DNA of 47,543 bases, from assembly GCA_035543055.1 (NCBI GenBank), contig DATKKJ010000036.1, positions 1 through 47,543 of the forward strand, in the 5' to 3' direction. Shown one piece after another: positions 33,218-40,909 of the stretch; the stretch's first letter is position 1, and every line of letters starts with the position of its first letter. The DNA comes from Terriglobales bacterium. Its GTDB lineage: Bacteria; Acidobacteriota; Terriglobia; Terriglobales; Acidobacteriaceae. Made by a program: the position numbers and the translations under genes. Under the pieces are notes generated by a model. The model was not told where the DNA came from, searched no databases, and saw only the letters and a list, made by a program, of their open reading frames with translations.

Positions 33218-33892
33218 TCAGATCTTGATCCGGCCGGTGTAGATGGCAATGCCGACCACGGCGTCCACGCCCATGCGCTCCAGCTCTTCGATCTGCTCCT
33301 CGCTATTGATGCCCCCGGCCGCGATCAAAGGCTTGCGCGTGGCCCGGCGAAGGGCACGGACGACATCCATCGGGATCCCCTGCAGCAATCCCTCGCTGTC
33401 CACGTGAGTGTAGAGGAACGCGGCGCACCAGGGCTCCAGGGCGCGCATCATCGTTTCCGCGGGTACCGCGGTCGGAGTGCGCCACCCGTGGGTCGTTACC
33501 GTCCCCTTTTTCGAATCCACCGCAAAGACCAGATTCTCGACCCCAATGTCGGCCGCAGCTTGCTTTGCGAATTCGATGTTGATCTCGCCGTCGCGGAGCA
33601 AGGCCGAACCGAAGATCACCCGCTTTGCGCCGAGCCCCAGTACCTCGCGTGCGCCCTCGATGGAGCGGATGCCGCCCCCGACCTGGCAGGGCAGTCGCTG
33701 TGTGAACTGCTTCAGCAGCGTGCGGTTGCTGCCGGTGCCCATGGCGGCATCGAGATCGATCAGTTGGACCAGCGGAAACTTCGAGAACCGCTCGATCCAC
33801 GGCTCGAAGTCGTCGAATTCCAGCGCCTTCTTCTCGCCCTGCACCAGCTGGACGATGCGCCCGCCCATCAAATCGATGGAAGGGATCAGCAC
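33218..33892 (-). CDS. hisA: phosphoribosylformimino-5-aminoimidazole carboxamide ribotide isomerase
   Basis: ProFAR isomerase, fourth step of histidine synthesis. The 224-residue (beta/alpha)8 protein starts [18 protein letters not shown], with catalytic Asp in PSIDL. The second catalytic Asp lies in VFAVDSKKG, and the phosphate-binding motifs [11 protein letters not shown] and [10 protein letters not shown] are visible. It is slightly shorter than the usual 240 residues. GTG start at 33892, overlapping the hisF stop by 7 nt. It is the last gene of the his operon and follows hisF, the reverse of the common A-F order. Confidence 0.95.
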
Positions 33893-34647
33893 GGCAGCCT
33901 CACCGGCACCCCGGCCGCGCGCAGCTCTTCCTTCAGATCGGTGATGCGATTCAGCCCGAAGTGGAAGATGCTGGCGGCGAGCGCGGCATCAGCCCTGCCC
34001 CGGGCGAAGACCTCGACGAAATGCTGCGGGCCGCCCGCGCCGCCCGATGCGATGATCGGGATGTTAACCGCCTCTGACACGCGTGACGTCAACTCGCACT
34101 CGAAGCCCGCTCCGGTGCCATCGCGGTCCATCGAGGTGAGCAAGATCTCGCCCGCGCCTCGCTGCTCCGCCTCGCGCGCCCATTCCGAGGCGCGGCGGCC
34201 GGTCGGCTTGCGTCCGCCGCTGATGTACACCTCGTAGTCGTCGCCGACGCGCTTCGCGTCCACCGCCACGATCACCGCCTGCGAGCCGAAGCGCTCGGCG
34301 ATGCGCGTGATCAACGAGGGATCGGCGACCGCGGCAGAATTGATCGAGACCTTATCCGCCCCGGCGTCGATGATCCCGGCAGCGTCTTCCAGAGATCGGA
34401 TGCCGCCTCCGACCGTGAAGGGGATGAACAGCTCGCGCGCTGCGCGGCGCACCGCGTCGATGAGGGTCTTGCGACCCTCGTGCGTCGCCGTGATGTCGAG
34501 CAGCACGACCTCATCCGCCCCGGCACGACTGTGGGCGGCGGCCAGTTCCGCCGGGTCTCCGGCATCGCGCAGCTCCTGGAACTGAACGCCCTTCACCACG
34601 CGTCCACGGTCGACGTCCAGGCAGGCGATGATGCGCTTGGTCAGCAT
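33886..34647 (-). CDS. hisF: imidazole glycerol phosphate synthase, cyclase subunit
   Basis: Cyclase half of IGP synthase, 253 residues. Start [23 protein letters not shown]; catalytic Asp residues in CLDVD and IVAVDAKR. The phosphate-binding sequences [11 protein letters not shown] and [11 protein letters not shown] mark the two half-barrels, and [11 protein letters not shown] is conserved. It forms a complex with HisH, encoded directly upstream with a 7-nt overlap. The ATG at 34647 is chosen because homology begins there; the frame is open further upstream but antisense-like in composition. Confidence 0.97.
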
Positions 34648-35225
34648 GCGAGAAAGTTCTTCAGGATCTCGAGGCCGGTGTCGCCGGATTTCTCGGGATG
34701 GAATTGCACGCCGAAAACGTTGTCGCGCTCCACTGCCGCCGCGAACGGCCCGCCATAGTCGCAGTCGGCGATCGTTCCCTCGCACAGCGGCGCGCGGTAG
34801 CTGTGGGTGAAGTAAACGAAGGCGCCCGTCGGGATGCCGGCCAGCAGCCGTGACCCGTCGCGGACAGAGATCTGGTTCCAGCCGACGTGCGGCGACTTCA
34901 CGCCCGGGGGAAATTTCGACACCTCGCCCGCGAAGAGCCCGAACCCCGAGATCCCCGGCGCCTCCGTGCTTCCGGCGAACATCCACTGCAGACCGACGCA
35001 GATGCCGAGGAACGGCTTGCCACGCCGGATCGCTGCCGTGATGGGCAGCCTCAATGGGTCGAGTGCTCTTGTGGCCGCAAAGTGCCCGACCCCGGGCAGC
35101 ACGATGCGCTCAGCCTGGGCGATGACGCCTGCGTCCGAGGTGATGACGGACTCGCCCCCTACCCGCTCCAGCGCCTTCTTCACCGAGGCGATGTTCCCCG
35201 CGCGGTAATCGACGATGGCGATCAC
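34641..35225 (-). CDS. hisH: imidazole glycerol phosphate synthase, glutamine amidotransferase subunit
   Basis: Supplies ammonia to HisF. The 194-residue class I glutaminase starts [18 protein letters not shown]. The nucleophile Cys is in [11 protein letters not shown] near residue 79, and the His and Glu of the triad in [12 protein letters not shown] near the end. GTG start at 35225 overlaps the hisB stop as GTGA. The order H-F allows coupled synthesis of the two subunits. Confidence 0.97.
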
Positions 35226-35809
35226 AGCAGTCCTTTCGTGCTGGGCAGCACCCGGCGCATGCGGCGGTCCCGCCAGCAGGCCGCGCGCAGGGCCCGGGCG
35301 AAAGCCTTGAACAGTACCTCGATCTTGTGATGGCTGGAGCGGCCGTATTGCACCCGGGCGTGGACGTTGGCGCGAGCACCTCGGGCGAAGCCGTCGAAGA
35401 AATCGTGGACCAGCTCTGCCTGCAGATCGCCCACCAGCCGGGCGCGGACTCTCGTCTCCACCACGGCGGTGGCGCGGCCACCGAAGTCCACCGCCGCCAG
35501 GCCGAGCGTCTCGTCCATGGGCATCAGGAAGTACCCGGCGCGGAGGATGCCCTTCTTGGCGCCGAGCGCGCGGTCAAACGCCTCTCCCAGCGCGATGCCG
35601 ACATCCTCGACCGTGTGGTGCTGGTCCACATCCAGGTCGCCCGTAGCCTCAAGCTTCAGGTCGAACCCGCCGTGCCGTGCGAACAGCTTCAGCATGTGAT
35701 CGAAGAAGCGGATGCCGGTCGAGACCTGGTAACGTCCGCGGCCATCGACGTTCAGCGTGACCCGGATGTCGGTTTCATTCGTCTTGCGGTGCAGCGTGGC
35801 TTTTCTCAT
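35222..35809 (-). CDS. hisB: imidazoleglycerol-phosphate dehydratase
   Basis: Monofunctional IGP dehydratase, 195 residues, without the phosphatase domain of the E. coli HisB. The metal-binding duplicates are clear: [33 protein letters not shown], and in the second half [17 protein letters not shown] and [19 protein letters not shown] separate histidinol-phosphate phosphatase is therefore needed and is not in the window. ATG at 35809 overlaps the hisC stop as ATGA. Confidence 0.97.
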
Positions 35810-36879
35810 GCCGACACCTTCGCGCTCTTCAGTTCGGCCATCACCGCCCGCAGCGCCGCGATCAGCCGGTCGGTCTGCTCCCTTGAGCCCAGAGTCATGC
35901 GCACGCAACCCTGGCACCCGGGATCACTGGAACGGTCGCGGACGAGAATGCCTCGTTCCCGCATGGCCCCCACGAATCGCCCGCTCTCGGCGCCGATCAA
36001 TGCCAGCACGAAGTTGGCCTGGCTCGGCCAGTACCTCACGCTGAGCTCGGCCAGCTCCTTCTCCAGGCGCTCGCGCCCGTGCCCGACCTCCGCGACATAA
36101 TCCCTGATGTACTCGCGGTCTGCCAGCGCCGCCGGCAGGCACGCCAAGGCAACGCCATTCACGTTGTACGGCGAGCTGACCCGGCGCACCATCTTCATCT
36201 GCTCGGCAGCACCGGCCAGCACACCGATGCGCAGACCGGCGAGACCATACGCCTTGGAAAACGTGCGGGCGACGAACAGGTTGGGCGCTGTGCTCGCCGC
36301 GTCCAGCACGGTCTGGCCGTAGAAGTCGAAATACGCTTCGTCCACCAGCAGCGCGGCGTCGGGCGCCGCAGCCGCGATCTTCAACAGGTCTTCCCTGCTG
36401 GCGGCGCGGCCCGTCGGGTTATTGGGATTGGCGAATGCAATCAGCCGCGTGCGGCCCGTGATCCTTGCCAGGACCTCCGCCGTTGGAAAAGCAAAGTCTT
36501 CCTTCGCCAGGACGGTGATCACGCGCGCCCCGGTCGCGGCGGCATAGATCTCGTACATCGAGAACGTAGGGACGGCGACGATGACCTCGTCCCCCGACTC
36601 CAGATAGGTCTCGCACAGCAGGTGGATCCCCTCGTCCACGCCGTTGGTGAGCAACACCTGCGCGGGCGCGATGCCCAGGAATTCGGCCACCGCTTGCTCG
36701 ACCGGCTCCCGCTCGGGATACTTCGCCAGGCGTTCGGGGTCGAGGTTGCGCAGGGCCTCCAGCACGCGCGGCGAGCAGCCCACGGTGTTCTCATTGAAGT
36801 CGAGGCGCAGGCCTTCGCGACCGCCCAGCGGCGGGTGGTATTCCTTCAACGTCCTGACGGCGGCGCGCGCGCTAAGCAT
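35806..36879 (-). CDS. hisC: histidinol-phosphate aminotransferase
   Basis: PLP-dependent class I/II aminotransferase, 357 residues. Start region [24 protein letters not shown] is typical of His[30 protein letters not shown] and [10 protein letters not shown] follow, then the PLP-lysine block [17 protein letters not shown]. It converts imidazole-acetol phosphate to histidinol phosphate. ATG at 36879 overlaps the hisD stop by 8 nt. Confidence 0.95.
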
Positions 36880-38119
36880 GGGCGCACCTCAAGCGGACAG
36901 ATTCCGCGTGCGCCCGCAGGCCCTCGGCCTCGGCCAGCGGCACCACCACCGGCGCGATCCCGGCGACGCCCTTCTTGCTCAATTCCTGGAAGGTGATCAG
37001 CTTCACAAAGTCGAAGACGCTCAGGCCGCCGCGGTACCGTGCGGCGCCGGCGGTAGGCAGCACGTGATTCGGGCCGGAAGCGTAATCGCCGGCCGCCTGC
37101 GGCGAGAAATCGCCGATGAAGATTGACCCCGCGTTGGTCACGAGCTCTGCGTTTTCGCGGCTCACGGTGATGTGCTCGGGCGCGATGCGGTTTGCCCACT
37201 CCATGGCTTGCGCCCGCGAACCCGCCAGCAGCGCGACTCCATTGGCTCGCAGCGATTCTTGGGCGATCGGATTCTCGGCCGCAAGGCTCGCGGTCTGCTC
37301 CGCCACGGAGTGCGCCAGCTTGAGATTCGTGCTGATGAATACTGCCAGAGCTTCCGGATCGTGCTCCGCCTGCGCCACCAGGTCGGCAGCGATGAAGCGC
37401 GCATCGCCTTCATCGGCGACAATCACCACCTCGGTCGGGCCCGCCAGCATGTCGATCGCGCAATCGAAGGCGACCAGCTTCTTGGCCGCGGTCACGTAGA
37501 GATTCCCGGGGCCGACGACCTTGTCCACACGCGGCACGCTCTTGGTGCCGTAGGCCAGGGCGGCGATCGCCTGCGCCCCGCCGGTGCGGTAGAACTCCCT
37601 CACGCCGAGCATCGCTGCCGCAGCCAGCGTCTCCGGCCGAGGATTGGGCGAAACCACCCGGATCTCATGCACGCCCGCGACCTGCGCCGGTATCACGGTC
37701 ATCAGCAGCGTGGAAGGCAGCGGATAGCGCCCGCCGGGAACGTAGCACCCGACCGAATCCAACGGACGGACGACCTGTCCCACCGCGACCCCGTCCGCTT
37801 CGCGCCGCCAAGGCTGCGGCCTCTGCCACTCGCAGAAGCGGCAGATGTTGGCCGCCGCCTTCTCCAGCGCCCGGCGAAACTCGAACGAGACCGAGTCCAA
37901 GGCCTGCTTCATCTCCGCCGCCGGGACGCGCAGTGCCTGCCTCGTCCGCAATCCGTCCCAGCGCTCGGCGTAGCGGCGCAGGGCGCGGTCGCCGGTCTTG
38001 CGCACATCTTCCACGATCTTTCGTACCCGGGGTTCGACCTGGTCCAGTTGGCTGCCGCGGCGCTCGAGTGCCACCACCCGCTTCTCCGCTGCCCGGCCTG
38101 TCAGGATGCGCAGCATCAC
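36872..38119 (-). CDS. hisD: histidinol dehydrogenase
   Basis: NAD-linked zinc enzyme for the last two steps of histidine synthesis, 415 residues. Conserved blocks include [37 protein letters not shown], and [13 protein letters not shown]. The metal and catalytic residues are in [12 protein letters not shown] and IAPEHITVS, and GPNHVLPT lies near the C-terminus. GTG at 38119 forms GTGA with the hisG stop; the next codon, ATG at 38116, forms TGATG. Either start is acceptable. Confidence 0.96.
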
Positions 38120-38985
38120 AGCACCACCTTGTTCAGCGGATACTCGACGATCCCAGTCGCATTCGCCGCTTTCAGCTTGGGGATCAGCTTCCAGGCCAGC
38201 GCTTCATCGATGATGGTGTTCACCGCCACCCACTCGGGGTCGCTCAGGGTCGCGATGGTCGGGCTGTTCAGCGCCGGCAGCACCGCGATCACCTGCTCCA
38301 GATCGGCCTTGCGTACGTTCAGCATCAGGCCCACCCGGCCCTGGGCGTCAATGGCGCCACGCAGCATCAGCGCCAGGTTCTCGATCTTTTGCCGCTTGCT
38401 GGACTCCTTCCACGCTTTCTTGTTGGCGATGATCTGGGTGTTGGATTCGAGCACGGTGTCGATGATGCGTAGCCGGTTGGCTCGGAGCGACGACCCGGTC
38501 TCAGTGACCTCGACGATGGCGTCGGCCAGCACCGGCGGCTTGACCTCCGTGGCGCCCCAGCTGAATTCCACCTGTACGGGCACGGCCTTCGCCGCGAAAT
38601 AATCTTTCGTGACATTCACCAGCTCGGTGGCGATGATCCGGCCCTTGAGGTCCTCGGCGCGCTTGTAAGCCGAATCTTCCGGCACGGCCAGCACCCAGCG
38701 CACTTTGCCCCGGCTCTGCTTGGCGTAAATCAGATCGGTGACGGCGATGACCTCGAGCCCGCTCTCCTTCACCCAGTCCAGACCCGTGAGCCCGGCGTCG
38801 AGTGCGCCGTGCTCGACGTAGCGCGCCATCTCCTGCGCCCGGATGAGCATGCACTCAATCTCCGGGTCGTCGGTGGTCGCCGAGTACGACCGCCCATTCG
38901 TGTAAACCTTTAAGCCTGCCGTCGCAAATAGCTGCAGCGTGGACTCTTGCAGGCTGCCTTTGGGGACGCCGAGACGCAGCTTCAC
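38116..38985 (-). CDS. hisG: ATP phosphoribosyltransferase, long form
   Basis: First and feedback-controlled step of histidine synthesis. The 289-residue length and the C-terminal ACT-like region (about 215-289) make it the long HisG, which does not need HisZ. Visible blocks are [48 protein letters not shown], and the PRPP-binding [16 protein letters not shown] start at 38985, preceded by GGAGGTGG, overlaps the hisI stop as GTGA; this is stronger than any upstream ATG. Confidence 0.95.
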
Positions 38986-39320
38986 CGGCCACCTCCGTTG
39001 AGCGGCAGGGGGCGCGTGAAGCAGGAGCGCGTGCCCTCGTGGCAGACCACGCCCTTGCCCTCCACCCGCACGCGCAGTAGCACGGTGTCGTGGTCGCAAT
39101 CGGTGGCGGCGGAGACGACCCGCAGGCGGTTGCCGCTGGTCTCACCCTTCACCCAAAGCCCCTTGCGCGTACGGCTGAAGAAGGTCCCATAGCCGGTGCT
39201 GAGGGTCCGCTCGTACGCCTCGCGGTTCATGAAGCCGAGCATGAGCACCTCGCCGGTCGCCTCGTCCTGCACGATGGCCGGCGCCAGCCCCTGCATCTTG
39301 TCGAAGTCGATGGTGGACAT
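38982..39320 (-). CDS. hisI: phosphoribosyl-AMP cyclohydrolase
   Basis: Opens the purine ring of PR-AMP. The 112-residue product has [33 protein letters not shown] and the metal-binding Asp/Cys block [11 protein letters not shown] with [10 protein letters not shown]. It has no HisE (pyrophosphohydrolase) domain and none is encoded in the operon, so hisE must lie elsewhere. First structural gene of the operon; ATG at 39320 has AAGGAACGGG upstream, just below the attenuator. Confidence 0.95.
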
Positions 39321-39337
39321 CACCCGTTCCTTTCCCC

Positions 39338-39377
39338 AAAAACACAAAACCCGCTGCGCTTTTCGCGTCAGCGGGTT
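39338..39377 (-). terminator. his attenuator terminator
   Basis: On the minus strand AACCCGCTG (39377-39369) pairs with CAGCGGGTT (39356-39348), extended inward by CGC/GCG around GAAAA. TTTTGTGTTTTT follows. The 5' arm can instead pair with GTCAGCGG (39424-39417) inside the leader gene, and that segment in turn with CGCTGAC (39467-39461), which gives the three alternative stems of a classical attenuator. Confidence 0.82.
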
Positions 39378-39402
39378 CGAACTTTATGAGTGCCGTCTTA
39401 GC

Positions 39403-39474
39403 CTAGGACCGCACCTCCGCTGACACGCTCGCCGCGTGGTGATGGTGGTGATGGCGATGGGTCAGCGTCTTCAT
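39403..39474 (-). CDS. hisL: histidine operon leader peptide
   Basis: A 23-codon reading frame, too short for ordinary gene finding, begins ATG-AAG-ACG-CTG-ACC and encodes MKTLTHRHHHHHHAAS at its start. Codons 6 and 8-13 are His, seven of eight consecutive positions, comparable to the seven-His run of the enterobacterial hisL. The stop (TAG, 39405-39403) lies 25 nt before the terminator's 5' arm and 83 nt before hisI. Ribosome stalling at the His codons when charged tRNA-His is short would free the leader segment 39424-39417 to pair with the terminator arm and let transcription continue. There is no strong ribosome-binding site; the predicted start point lies only a few nt upstream, so translation may be nearly leaderless. 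Confidence 0.85.
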   Translation of the reverse strand: MKTLTHRHHHHHHAASVSAEVRS

Positions 39475-39483
39475 TGCCCGTTC

Positions 39484-39512
39484 AGGGTAGCCGCGGGGGC
39501 AGGTGAAGTCAA
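39484..39512 (-). promoter_or_regulatory. candidate his operon promoter
   Basis: On the minus strand TTGACT (39512-39507) and TACCCT (39489-39484) are spaced by 17 nt. The -35 box matches five of six consensus bases; the -10 box is poor. The predicted start point is within a few nt of hisL. Confidence 0.35.
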
Positions 39513-39533
39513 AGGAAATTTGTCACTCTACCT

Positions 39534-39549
39534 TGTGACGCATGTCACG
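39534..39549. promoter_or_regulatory. CRP/FNR-like palindrome between his and thiolase genes
   Basis: TGTGACGCATGTCACG fits TGTGA-N6-TCAC and resembles the site at 5112 upstream of the phosphofructokinase gene. It lies about 64 nt upstream of the predicted his start point and about 126 nt upstream of the predicted thiolase start point. Binding is inferred. Confidence 0.4.
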
Positions 39550-39632
39550 CCGCAGCGAAGGGGCATGCCCGCGCATCCATGTAGTTGGCAAGAGGTACGG
39601 GCTGGCAGAGAATGCTGAGGCTCCGCCGGTAG

Positions 39633-39661
39633 GTGACTTACCCGGCCCAAGCTCCTACAAT
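39633..39661 (+). promoter_or_regulatory. candidate thiolase promoter
   Basis: GTGACT (39633-39638) and TACAAT (39656-39661) with 17 nt spacing lie 37 nt upstream of the thiolase ATG. The -10 box matches five of six consensus bases. Confidence 0.5.
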
Positions 39662-39697
39662 AGACAGTTCTTCGAGCATCGGAGAAGGAGAGTTCAT

Positions 39698-40909
39698 ATG
39701 GCCAAGCGCATTTATATCGCCGCCTACGACCAGTCGAAGTTCGGCAAGCTGATGGCGCTCACCGTCCCGCAGATCCTGCGCAACGCGGTCGAGTCCGTCT
39801 GCCGCAAGATCAGCGTCCAACCTTCGGTCATCGACGTCGGCTCGGTGGGCGCCGCCTGCGGCTTCACCCTCAACGAGCAGGGCCTGCTCTCCGGCCTGAT
39901 GGCCATGGTGCCCGGCCTCGAAGGCAAGCCCATCGAAGCCGTCGAGAACGCCTGCGCCTCCGGCGGCCAGGCCATCCTCTCCACCATCTACAAAATGCAG
40001 TTCGGGCTGGGCGACGTGGGCCTGGCAGTCGGTTACGAGAAGATGCGCGACAACGAAGGCAAGATGGACGGCAAGCTGGTGGGCAAGGTGCTCGGCTACT
40101 TCTCCCATCCCGACGAGCGTGAGGGCAAGACCTTCGTCTTCCCTCACCTGTTCGCCGAGGTCATGCGCGATTACATCAAGACCTGGGGCTCGAGCGAGGA
40201 GGAGCTGGCGCAGATCGCGGTCGCCGAGTACGGCAACGCCAAGTACAACTCCTGCGCCCAGATGAACAAGGTGCAGATCACGCTCGACCAGGCGATGAAG
40301 ATCGAGGGCATCAACCGCTACGTGGTGGACGGCCTGCCGCTGAAGACCTACGACTGCTCGCAGATCACCGACGGCTATGCCGCCATGATCCTGGCCACCG
40401 AGGAGGGCCTGAAGAAGCTCGGTGTCCCCAAGGCGGAGTGCGTGGAGATCGCCGGCTACGCCCAGGCTACCGATCCGCTGAAGAAGGAAGGTCGCGACGT
40501 CCTGAAGGCTGCGGGCGCCTACCGCGCCATGAATAAGGCCTACGAGATGGCCGGCGCCAAGCCTGCCGACGTCAACGTCGCCGAGGTCCACGACTGCTTC
40601 ACCGTCATGGGCGCCATCGGGACCGAGGTCATCGGCAAGGCGCAGCCCGGCAAGGGCGCGAAGTACTGGGTGGAAGGCAAGGCCAACGTGGGCGGCGAGT
40701 GCGCCATCAACACCTCCGGCGGGCTGATCGCCAAGGGACATCCGGTGGGCGCCACCGGCGTGGCCATGGTGGGCTGGGCAGCACAGCAATTGCTCGGGCG
40801 CGCTCCGCAGGAGCTCCAGCAGAAGGACCCGAAGCTGGCCGCGACGTTTAACATCGGCGGCCCCATCTGCGCCTCGGTGTGCACGGTGCTGCGCAGGGCT
40901 AGCGCCTAG
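39698..40909 (+). CDS. thiolase family protein (acetyl-CoA acyltransferase type)
   Basis: Thiolase-fold enzyme, 403 residues, of the SCP2-like/archaeal-type group rather than classical AtoB. The nucleophile Cys lies in VENACASGGQAIL near residue 88. The catalytic His regions are AEVHDCFTVMG and GGLIAKGHPVGATG. The C-terminal segment FNIGGPICASVCTVLRR carries two Cys, one at the position of the usual second catalytic Cys. Likely role: condensation or cleavage of acetyl-CoA or acyl-CoA. No HMG-CoA synthase or DUF35-type OB-fold partner gene is next to it. The ATG at 39698 follows GGAGAAGGAGAG, a strong ribosome-binding site. The gene stands alone between the his leader region and a REP-like hairpin. 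Confidence 0.9.
   Translation: MAKRIYIAAYDQSKFGKLMALTVPQILRNAVESVCRKISVQPSVIDVGSVGAACGFTLNEQGLLSGLMAMVPGLEGKPIEAVENACASGGQAILSTIYKMQFGLGDVGLAVGYEKMRDNEGKMDGKLVGKVLGYFSHPDEREGKTFVFPHLFAEVMRDYIKTWGSSEEELAQIAVAEYGNAKYNSCAQMNKVQITLDQAMKIEGINRYVVDGLPLKTYDCSQITDGYAAMILATEEGLKKLGVPKAECVEIAGYAQATDPLKKEGRDVLKAAGAYRAMNKAYEMAGAKPADVNVAEVHDCFTVMGAIGTEVIGKAQPGKGAKYWVEGKANVGGECAINTSGGLIAKGHPVGATGVAMVGWAAQQLLGRAPQELQQKDPKLAATFNIGGPICASVCTVLRRASA

Follow-up and report, generated by a model that had tools for sequence, protein, structure and literature searches.

A putative histidine leader-peptide attenuator, probably leaderless, upstream of hisI in Acidobacteriota

The hisI leader region and the operon behind it

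The window, the whole stretch of 47,543 nucleotides analysed here, comes from a Terriglobales bacterium of the Acidobacteriaceae and carries on its minus strand a histidine operon with the gene order hisIGDCBHFA (Table 1). The nearest named relatives of its hisI are a Terriglobia MAG (78%) and an Acidobacteriaceae MAG (70%). Because of the extent of the hisB profile match within its ORF, the true start of hisB is probably near 35809. Ahead of the operon the order is His-rich leader ORF, intrinsic terminator and hisI, with 82 nt between the leader stop and hisI and the strong terminator inside this gap.

An earlier reading of the sequence alone had placed the leader ORF, three pairing segments and a terminator ahead of hisI at this locus, and its coordinates all match base for base. 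This includes the cores of segment 2 (GTCAGCGG, 39424–39417) and segment 3 (CCGCTGAC, 39374–39367), which were checked exactly on the minus strand. The 23-residue peptide with seven His codons in eight positions that it described is likewise confirmed in the window. At 23 codons, the leader gene is small enough for ORF callers to miss easily; in a scan of the whole window it is the sole ORF of 8–61 aa with at least five His in eight residues. Twenty dinucleotide-shuffled windows gave a mean of 0.05 such ORFs, and none with at least six His, so a His run like this one greatly exceeds chance expectation for the window.

Table 1. Features of the leader region and of the his operon in the window.
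Feature	Position	Strand	Remarks
Leader promoter, −35 box	39507..39512	−	TTGACT; spacer 17, 5/6 consensus matches
Leader promoter, −10 box	39484..39489	−	TACCCT; ends 9 nt before leader ATG, 3/6 matches
Leader ORF	39403..39474	−	MKTLTHRHHHHHHAASVSAEVRS followed by stop; 23 codons, 7 His codons in 8 positions
Segment 1	39461..39467	−	CGCTGAC; can pair with segment 2 in the window
Segment 2	39417..39428	−	GCGTGTCAGCGG; putative antiterminator 5′ arm, inside leader ORF
Segment 3	39364..39374	−	CCGCTGACGCG; putative antiterminator 3′ arm and terminator 5′ arm
Intrinsic terminator	39338..39378	−	hairpin 39378–39347 and T-rich tail TGTGTTTTT 39346–39338
hisI	38982..39320	−	phosphoribosyl-AMP cyclohydrolase; first gene, preceded by AAAGGAAC; ATG at 39320
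hisG	38116..38985	−	
hisD	36872..38110	−	
hisC	35806..36879	−	
hisB	35222..35917	−	profile match covers residues 37–231 of ORF
hisH	34641..35225	−	
hisF	33886..34647	−	
hisA	33218..33892	−	best match TIGR00007, 162.9 bits, under cut-off 228.95

Distribution and coding signal of the leader

The set of relatives comprised 61 genomes, 48 of which have hisI: 28 of 37 in the window's family, 10 of 14 in the other family of the order and 10 of 10 in the rest of the class. An ORF with at least four His in eight residues lies before hisI in 28/28, 10/10 and 5/10 of these, respectively. A sixth leader from the rest of the class (L123) has three His, a good promoter and, by reading, a terminator. The four remaining hisI loci of the class have no leader (L127, L128, L129 and L122, the last with 275 nt of upstream sequence only); at L127 and L129 hisI stands closely behind what reads like hisF.

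A model of the element, R1, was trained on the 28 family members and one further locus (L032). It matches with E ≤ 1e-11 in all 28 hisI-bearing family genomes, every one a training member, and has no strong match in the nine family genomes without hisI (best E 2.8e-5). Three of the latter contain weak matches (E 2.8e-5 to 1.5e-4); on reading, these look like terminators or coding sequence, and no His leader accompanies them. These nine genomes, in which the search returned no hisI match (G002, G005, G008, G011, G012, G015, G023, G024 and G026, of 37 in the family), are possibly histidine auxotrophs or carry a different hisI; seven of them are at least 97% complete.

A wider sample of the phylum held 247 genomes and hisI in 150, 25 of them in the window's family and 125 outside it. 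R1 matches adjoin hisI in 25/25 of these family members, and 19 of the 25 are independent of the model, lying outside its training set. When further hisI loci were read, a leader was present in 12/12 from the family and in 19 of the 68 read among the 125 outside it. The 19 belong to seven families in which each locus read has a leader (f24, f33, f42, f53, f55, f67 and f71), and 49/68, from other families of the phylum, have no leader before hisI. Two further families include three genomes (L210, L211, L212) whose leader stands before hisG, not hisI, and the element was also found in other orders and another class of the phylum. The sequence-only reading had pointed to relatives that lose the His codons and keep the rest of the region; no hisI locus that we read has done so, the poorest being L123.

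Nine hisI loci named as acidobacterial include five with a leader (L032, L033, L034, L043, L048), three with none (L061, L085, L107) and one that lacks upstream sequence (L057). Among 71 hisI loci not so named, no ORF with at least four His in eight residues was found within 450 nt upstream (254 nt at L050), a weak control because hisI need not head those operons.

Once repeated leader ORFs and L033, whose contig equals that of L017 in length, had been removed, 77 distinct leaders were kept, L123 with its three His not among them. Their His codons comprise 275 CAT and 243 CAC in 70 patterns, and third base, number (4–9) and order all vary among leaders, which suggests that what is selected is the His residue and not an RNA motif. 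The leaders were chosen as His-rich, so the His count itself is no evidence. Besides the His leader of its hisI (L020), one relative (G006) has a second leader-like element on contig C150, away from hisI (L283). Its segment 2 and terminator resemble those of the His leader, yet it lacks a His run, and it is possibly a decayed or retargeted duplicate.

RNA pairing and the leader promoter

The terminator that had been proposed before hisI is strongly supported by folding: its stretch reaches −22.6 kcal/mol (z −4.4), and 0/200 shuffles are as good. When the whole window leader is folded, the 1:2 and 3:4 stems are both paired. The 2:3 helix forms if segment 1 is omitted, at −29.6 and a z of only −1.35, with 21/200 shuffles as good. 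The 1:2 helix (7 bp) does form, but its stretch is no stabler than shuffles (z −0.04). Folding of the region, the check that had been suggested, therefore strongly supports the terminator, yields 2:3 without segment 1 and gives 1:2 no more than shuffled stability.

Covariation of 2:3 and 3:4 was assessed in an alignment, A2, of 25 of the 29 aligned members. Four members (L014, L015, L027, L029) were excluded because their segment 2 departs most, and among these only L015 has its own 2:3 at p < 0.05. In the pair counts, which this exclusion favours, and with shuffle fractions that are not probabilities because related sequences are not independent, 92% of cells pair in the antiterminator 2:3 and 5 of its 11 pairs are doubly changed (1/500 shuffles). 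The 2:3 covariation score exceeds all 500 shuffles, and any of the five antiterminator measures is reached by at most 8/500. Slid versions of 2:3 pair just 26–46%, and one of them retains 3 doubly changed pairs and 5 doubly changed cells. In the terminator 3:4 of the same 25 sequences, 81% of cells pair and 8 of 13 pairs are doubly changed (0/500 shuffles); four of the measures are reached by 0/500 shuffles and the number of pair types by 147/500. Covariation across relatives, as had been proposed, is thus found for both stems.

Duplex energies, from which L115 was excluded for want of a terminator, point the same way more strongly inside the family than outside it. The leaders' own 2:3 duplexes average −21.5 vs −15.0 for shuffles in the family and −18.7 vs −15.1 outside it. 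They beat shuffles at p < 0.05 in 29/41 family leaders and 11/35 outside, 24/35 outside being not significant. When terminator arms were swapped between genomes, the mean duplex with segment 2 was −17.8 vs −20.5 for the own arm. On average 28% of swapped arms outpair the own arm, as expected because the sequences are related. A hairpin of −15 kcal/mol or lower with a T-rich tail follows 71/77 leaders vs 29/770 shuffled regions, and one of −8 kcal/mol or lower follows 76/77 vs 154/770; the terminator script found none at L115 and a weak one at L043.

The 1:2 stem behaves differently. It reaches p < 0.05 by duplex energy in 11/45 leaders and, as a contiguous helix, in 4/77, which is chance level, and we did not accept it as a conserved part of the element. 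Of the three competing segments in the earlier proposal, the 2:3 and 3:4 pairings show compensatory changes while 1:2 stays at chance over the 77 leaders, and for that reason the word "complete" that had been used for the attenuator overstates the case. The spacing of the parts is summarised by medians over the leaders: segment 2 begins 9 nt past the last His codon, the leader stop codon lies 11 nt past segment 2, and the hairpin begins 27 nt after the stop.

A promoter-like sequence ends close to the leader ATG. TTGAC lies 34–41 nt upstream of the ATG in 34/46 leaders, and a promoter with at least 9/12 consensus matches was scored in 52 of the 77; in 49/52 of these the −10 box ends 6–12 nt before the ATG. 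The exceptions are L023, which by reading fits with an upstream in-frame ATG, L174 and L189. At L010 no good promoter was scored, and by reading a GTG start fits. The window's own promoter has 8/12 matches (p 0.04 by shuffles), below the set of 52, and would place the transcript start, we infer, 0–5 nt from the leader ATG. Shine–Dalgarno (SD)-like pairing of −4 kcal or lower is present at 12/77 leaders vs 59/77 hisI starts, and such a promoter at 0/77 hisI starts. With the −10 gap of 6–12 nt and the rarity of SD-like sites, the leader gene is probably leaderless. This trait fits the phylum, since leaderless genes are predicted at 9.7–19.4% in three Acidobacteria (PMC3160421).

Attenuation model, alternatives and related leaders

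We interpret the element, with a probability of about 0.92, as a ribosome-mediated transcription attenuator of hisIGDCBHFA that would respond to charged tRNA-His. Conservation, the covariation of 2:3 and 3:4 and the tight association with hisI argue for this reading, and the proposal of a His leader-peptide attenuator far from the Enterobacteria, first made from the sequence alone, is supported on the same grounds. Transcription would start at the leader AUG or no more than a few bases from it, and ribosomes would consequently load onto the 5′ terminus of the growing transcript. With plentiful His-tRNA-His, a ribosome would pass the His codons, reach the stop codon and cover segment 2; judged by the footprint of a ribosome, one at the leader stop codon would cover part of this segment. 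Segments 3 and 4 would then pair as the terminator, ending transcription before hisI. With scarce charged tRNA-His, the ribosome is expected to stall in the His run and leave segment 2 free, which would pair with segment 3, prevent the terminator and let the operon be transcribed. Stalling, termination and the histidine response are all predicted from the arrangement of the parts.

Other readings of the same region can be weighed against this evidence. The ORF might encode a functional His-rich, metal-binding micropeptide that is a neighbour of hisI by chance, the hairpin being a plain terminator. Poly-His peptides do bind metals, and a further His-rich short ORF, in one genome (L218), has a start that by reading resembles a signal peptide. 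However, between relatives the leaders vary in N-terminal residues, length (17–32 aa) and exact His spacing but keep their place ahead of the his genes. Strong matches to the element are also missing from 9/9 family members without hisI, and segment 2 covaries with segment 3, which lies outside the ORF; we therefore consider a micropeptide very unlikely.

We give equally little credence to the idea that another sensor (a T-box, a riboswitch or a protein, for example HisR) controls termination and that the His run is incidental. In other phyla his genes are under T-box or HisR control (PMC9413887), but the Rfam search around the site (38900–39900) gave three matches at E ≤ 10, with no T-box among them and none over cut-off. 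No Rfam family passed its cut-off in 14 chosen loci either (sub-threshold at L030, Leu_leader 31.8 and Thr_leader 27.4 bits), and the His run stands before hisI in 28/28 hisI-bearing family members. One of the window's matches, Bp2_287 (18.1 bits, cut-off 70), covers this hairpin of the terminator on the other strand and was put down to the palindromic nature of the sequence. The least probable reading is that leader translation works by coupling or reinitiation on hisI instead of termination. For several phyla, Acidobacteria among them, it has been suggested that leader peptides allow reinitiation when the spacing is ~10–14 nt (PMC4833913), whereas in the window the gap from leader stop to hisI is far longer and holds the terminator, and hisI has an SD-like site of its own in 59/77 loci.

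The attenuator reading invites comparison with known systems. Enterobacterial hisL, represented in Rfam by RF00514 (His_leader, gathering cut-off 49 bits), shares the run of His codons, the terminator before the first his gene and an antiterminator that uses the 5′ arm of the terminator. It differs in that the acidobacterial operon begins with hisI, its 1:2 stem is not beyond chance and its leader is probably leaderless, which E. coli hisL is not known to be. RF00514 gave no match in the window at E up to 10 and passed its cut-off in 0/41 genomes, in a search that recovered its controls, E. coli among them. Below the cut-off it scored 20.6 bits in G013, on the leader before hisI, and at best 29.1 bits, at L210. 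The His leaders of Firmicutes (the B. cereus group, Peptostreptococcaceae with Lutispora, and Erysipelotrichales) are similar in their short leader and the terminator and antiterminator before the his operon, while belonging to another phylum and being likened here by description. They are reported in 17 genomes with 3–5 consecutive His codons, a terminator and an antiterminator, and His leaders are described in Proteobacteria and some Firmicutes (PMC9413887).

For the start of the transcript, the closest parallels are the trpL (rnTrpL) of Sinorhizobium meliloti (PMC7298713) and the ilvB leader of Corynebacterium diphtheriae (PMC5784534), whose 5′ ends are reported at the leader start codon. 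These contain Trp or Ile/Val codons, and their 5′ ends are reported where ours is deduced from the promoter. In 2010 leader-peptide systems were described as earlier known only in Proteobacteria and Actinobacteria, with Firmicutes added by the survey, and for Acidobacteria the predicted attenuators were said to be linked to hardly any function (PMC2965389). Our literature search, which covered few subscription papers, found no His attenuator described in Acidobacteria. The element would therefore belong to a familiar type of switch, in this phylum one for which no description was found, with the probably leaderless start as its distinctive trait. It offers a specific, testable regulator for a large and poorly studied soil phylum and adds a lineage to the question of whether leader-peptide attenuation arose repeatedly. 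A leaderless His leader, if true, would also allow a direct test of coupling without SD-led loading.

Weak R1 matches pointed to further candidate attenuators in relatives, and the downstream genes were confirmed by family models at eight loci. Short ORFs rich in Phe, Tyr and Trp (e.g., MHRSVASRFWYYRSGGRGVS) with a terminator-like hairpin lie upstream of DAHP synthase genes, in relatives from the order (L286, L289, L291, L292, L296) and, from a PF00793 search, in the window's family (L305, L326/L335, L325/L338, L333). The DAHP synthase gene is confirmed by a family model at L286 and L292, and these ORFs are candidate aromatic attenuators. The window's own genome has four DAHP synthase loci, and no aromatic leader there met the threshold. 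At two other loci, Cys-rich short ORFs (MPVSCRCRACACCQSAEGCDLG at L288 and MCCCHAAIGGCVSPELNGS at L295) with a terminator-like hairpin precede cysD and a sulfate adenylyltransferase gene. These are candidate cysteine attenuators, reminiscent of the Cys-rich upstream ORFs of mycobacteria (PMC4633059). In another acidobacterial family, MMIAATFNRYYWWYR and a terminator-like hairpin stand before a trpE-like gene (L220; best model trpE_most, on a partial ORF under the cut-off), a candidate Trp attenuator. Short ORFs with two Trp in eight residues occur upstream of trpE at 5 of 25 loci (16 from the family and 9 from the order), with no convincing terminator near any of the five.

It is conceivable, at somewhat under even odds, that Acidobacteriota use a repertoire of leaderless leader-peptide attenuators as a main route of amino-acid sensing. 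This would comprise His leaders at hisI or hisG, aromatic-rich leaders at DAHP synthase, Trp leaders at trpE and Cys-rich leaders at cysD and sulfate adenylyltransferase. Ribosomes would bind directly to the start codon at the 5′ end of the emerging transcript, and leader loading would set the default without a conserved 1:2 pause hairpin.

A last group of hairpins lies near asd-like genes. Reading 25 such loci by eye gave no clear leader, and at one of them (L253) a terminator-like hairpin is present just before the gene. In other families, the asd-like genes at four loci (L216, L221, L222, L225) stand a short distance behind terminator-like hairpins similar in sequence, and asd is confirmed by a family model at L216 and L222.
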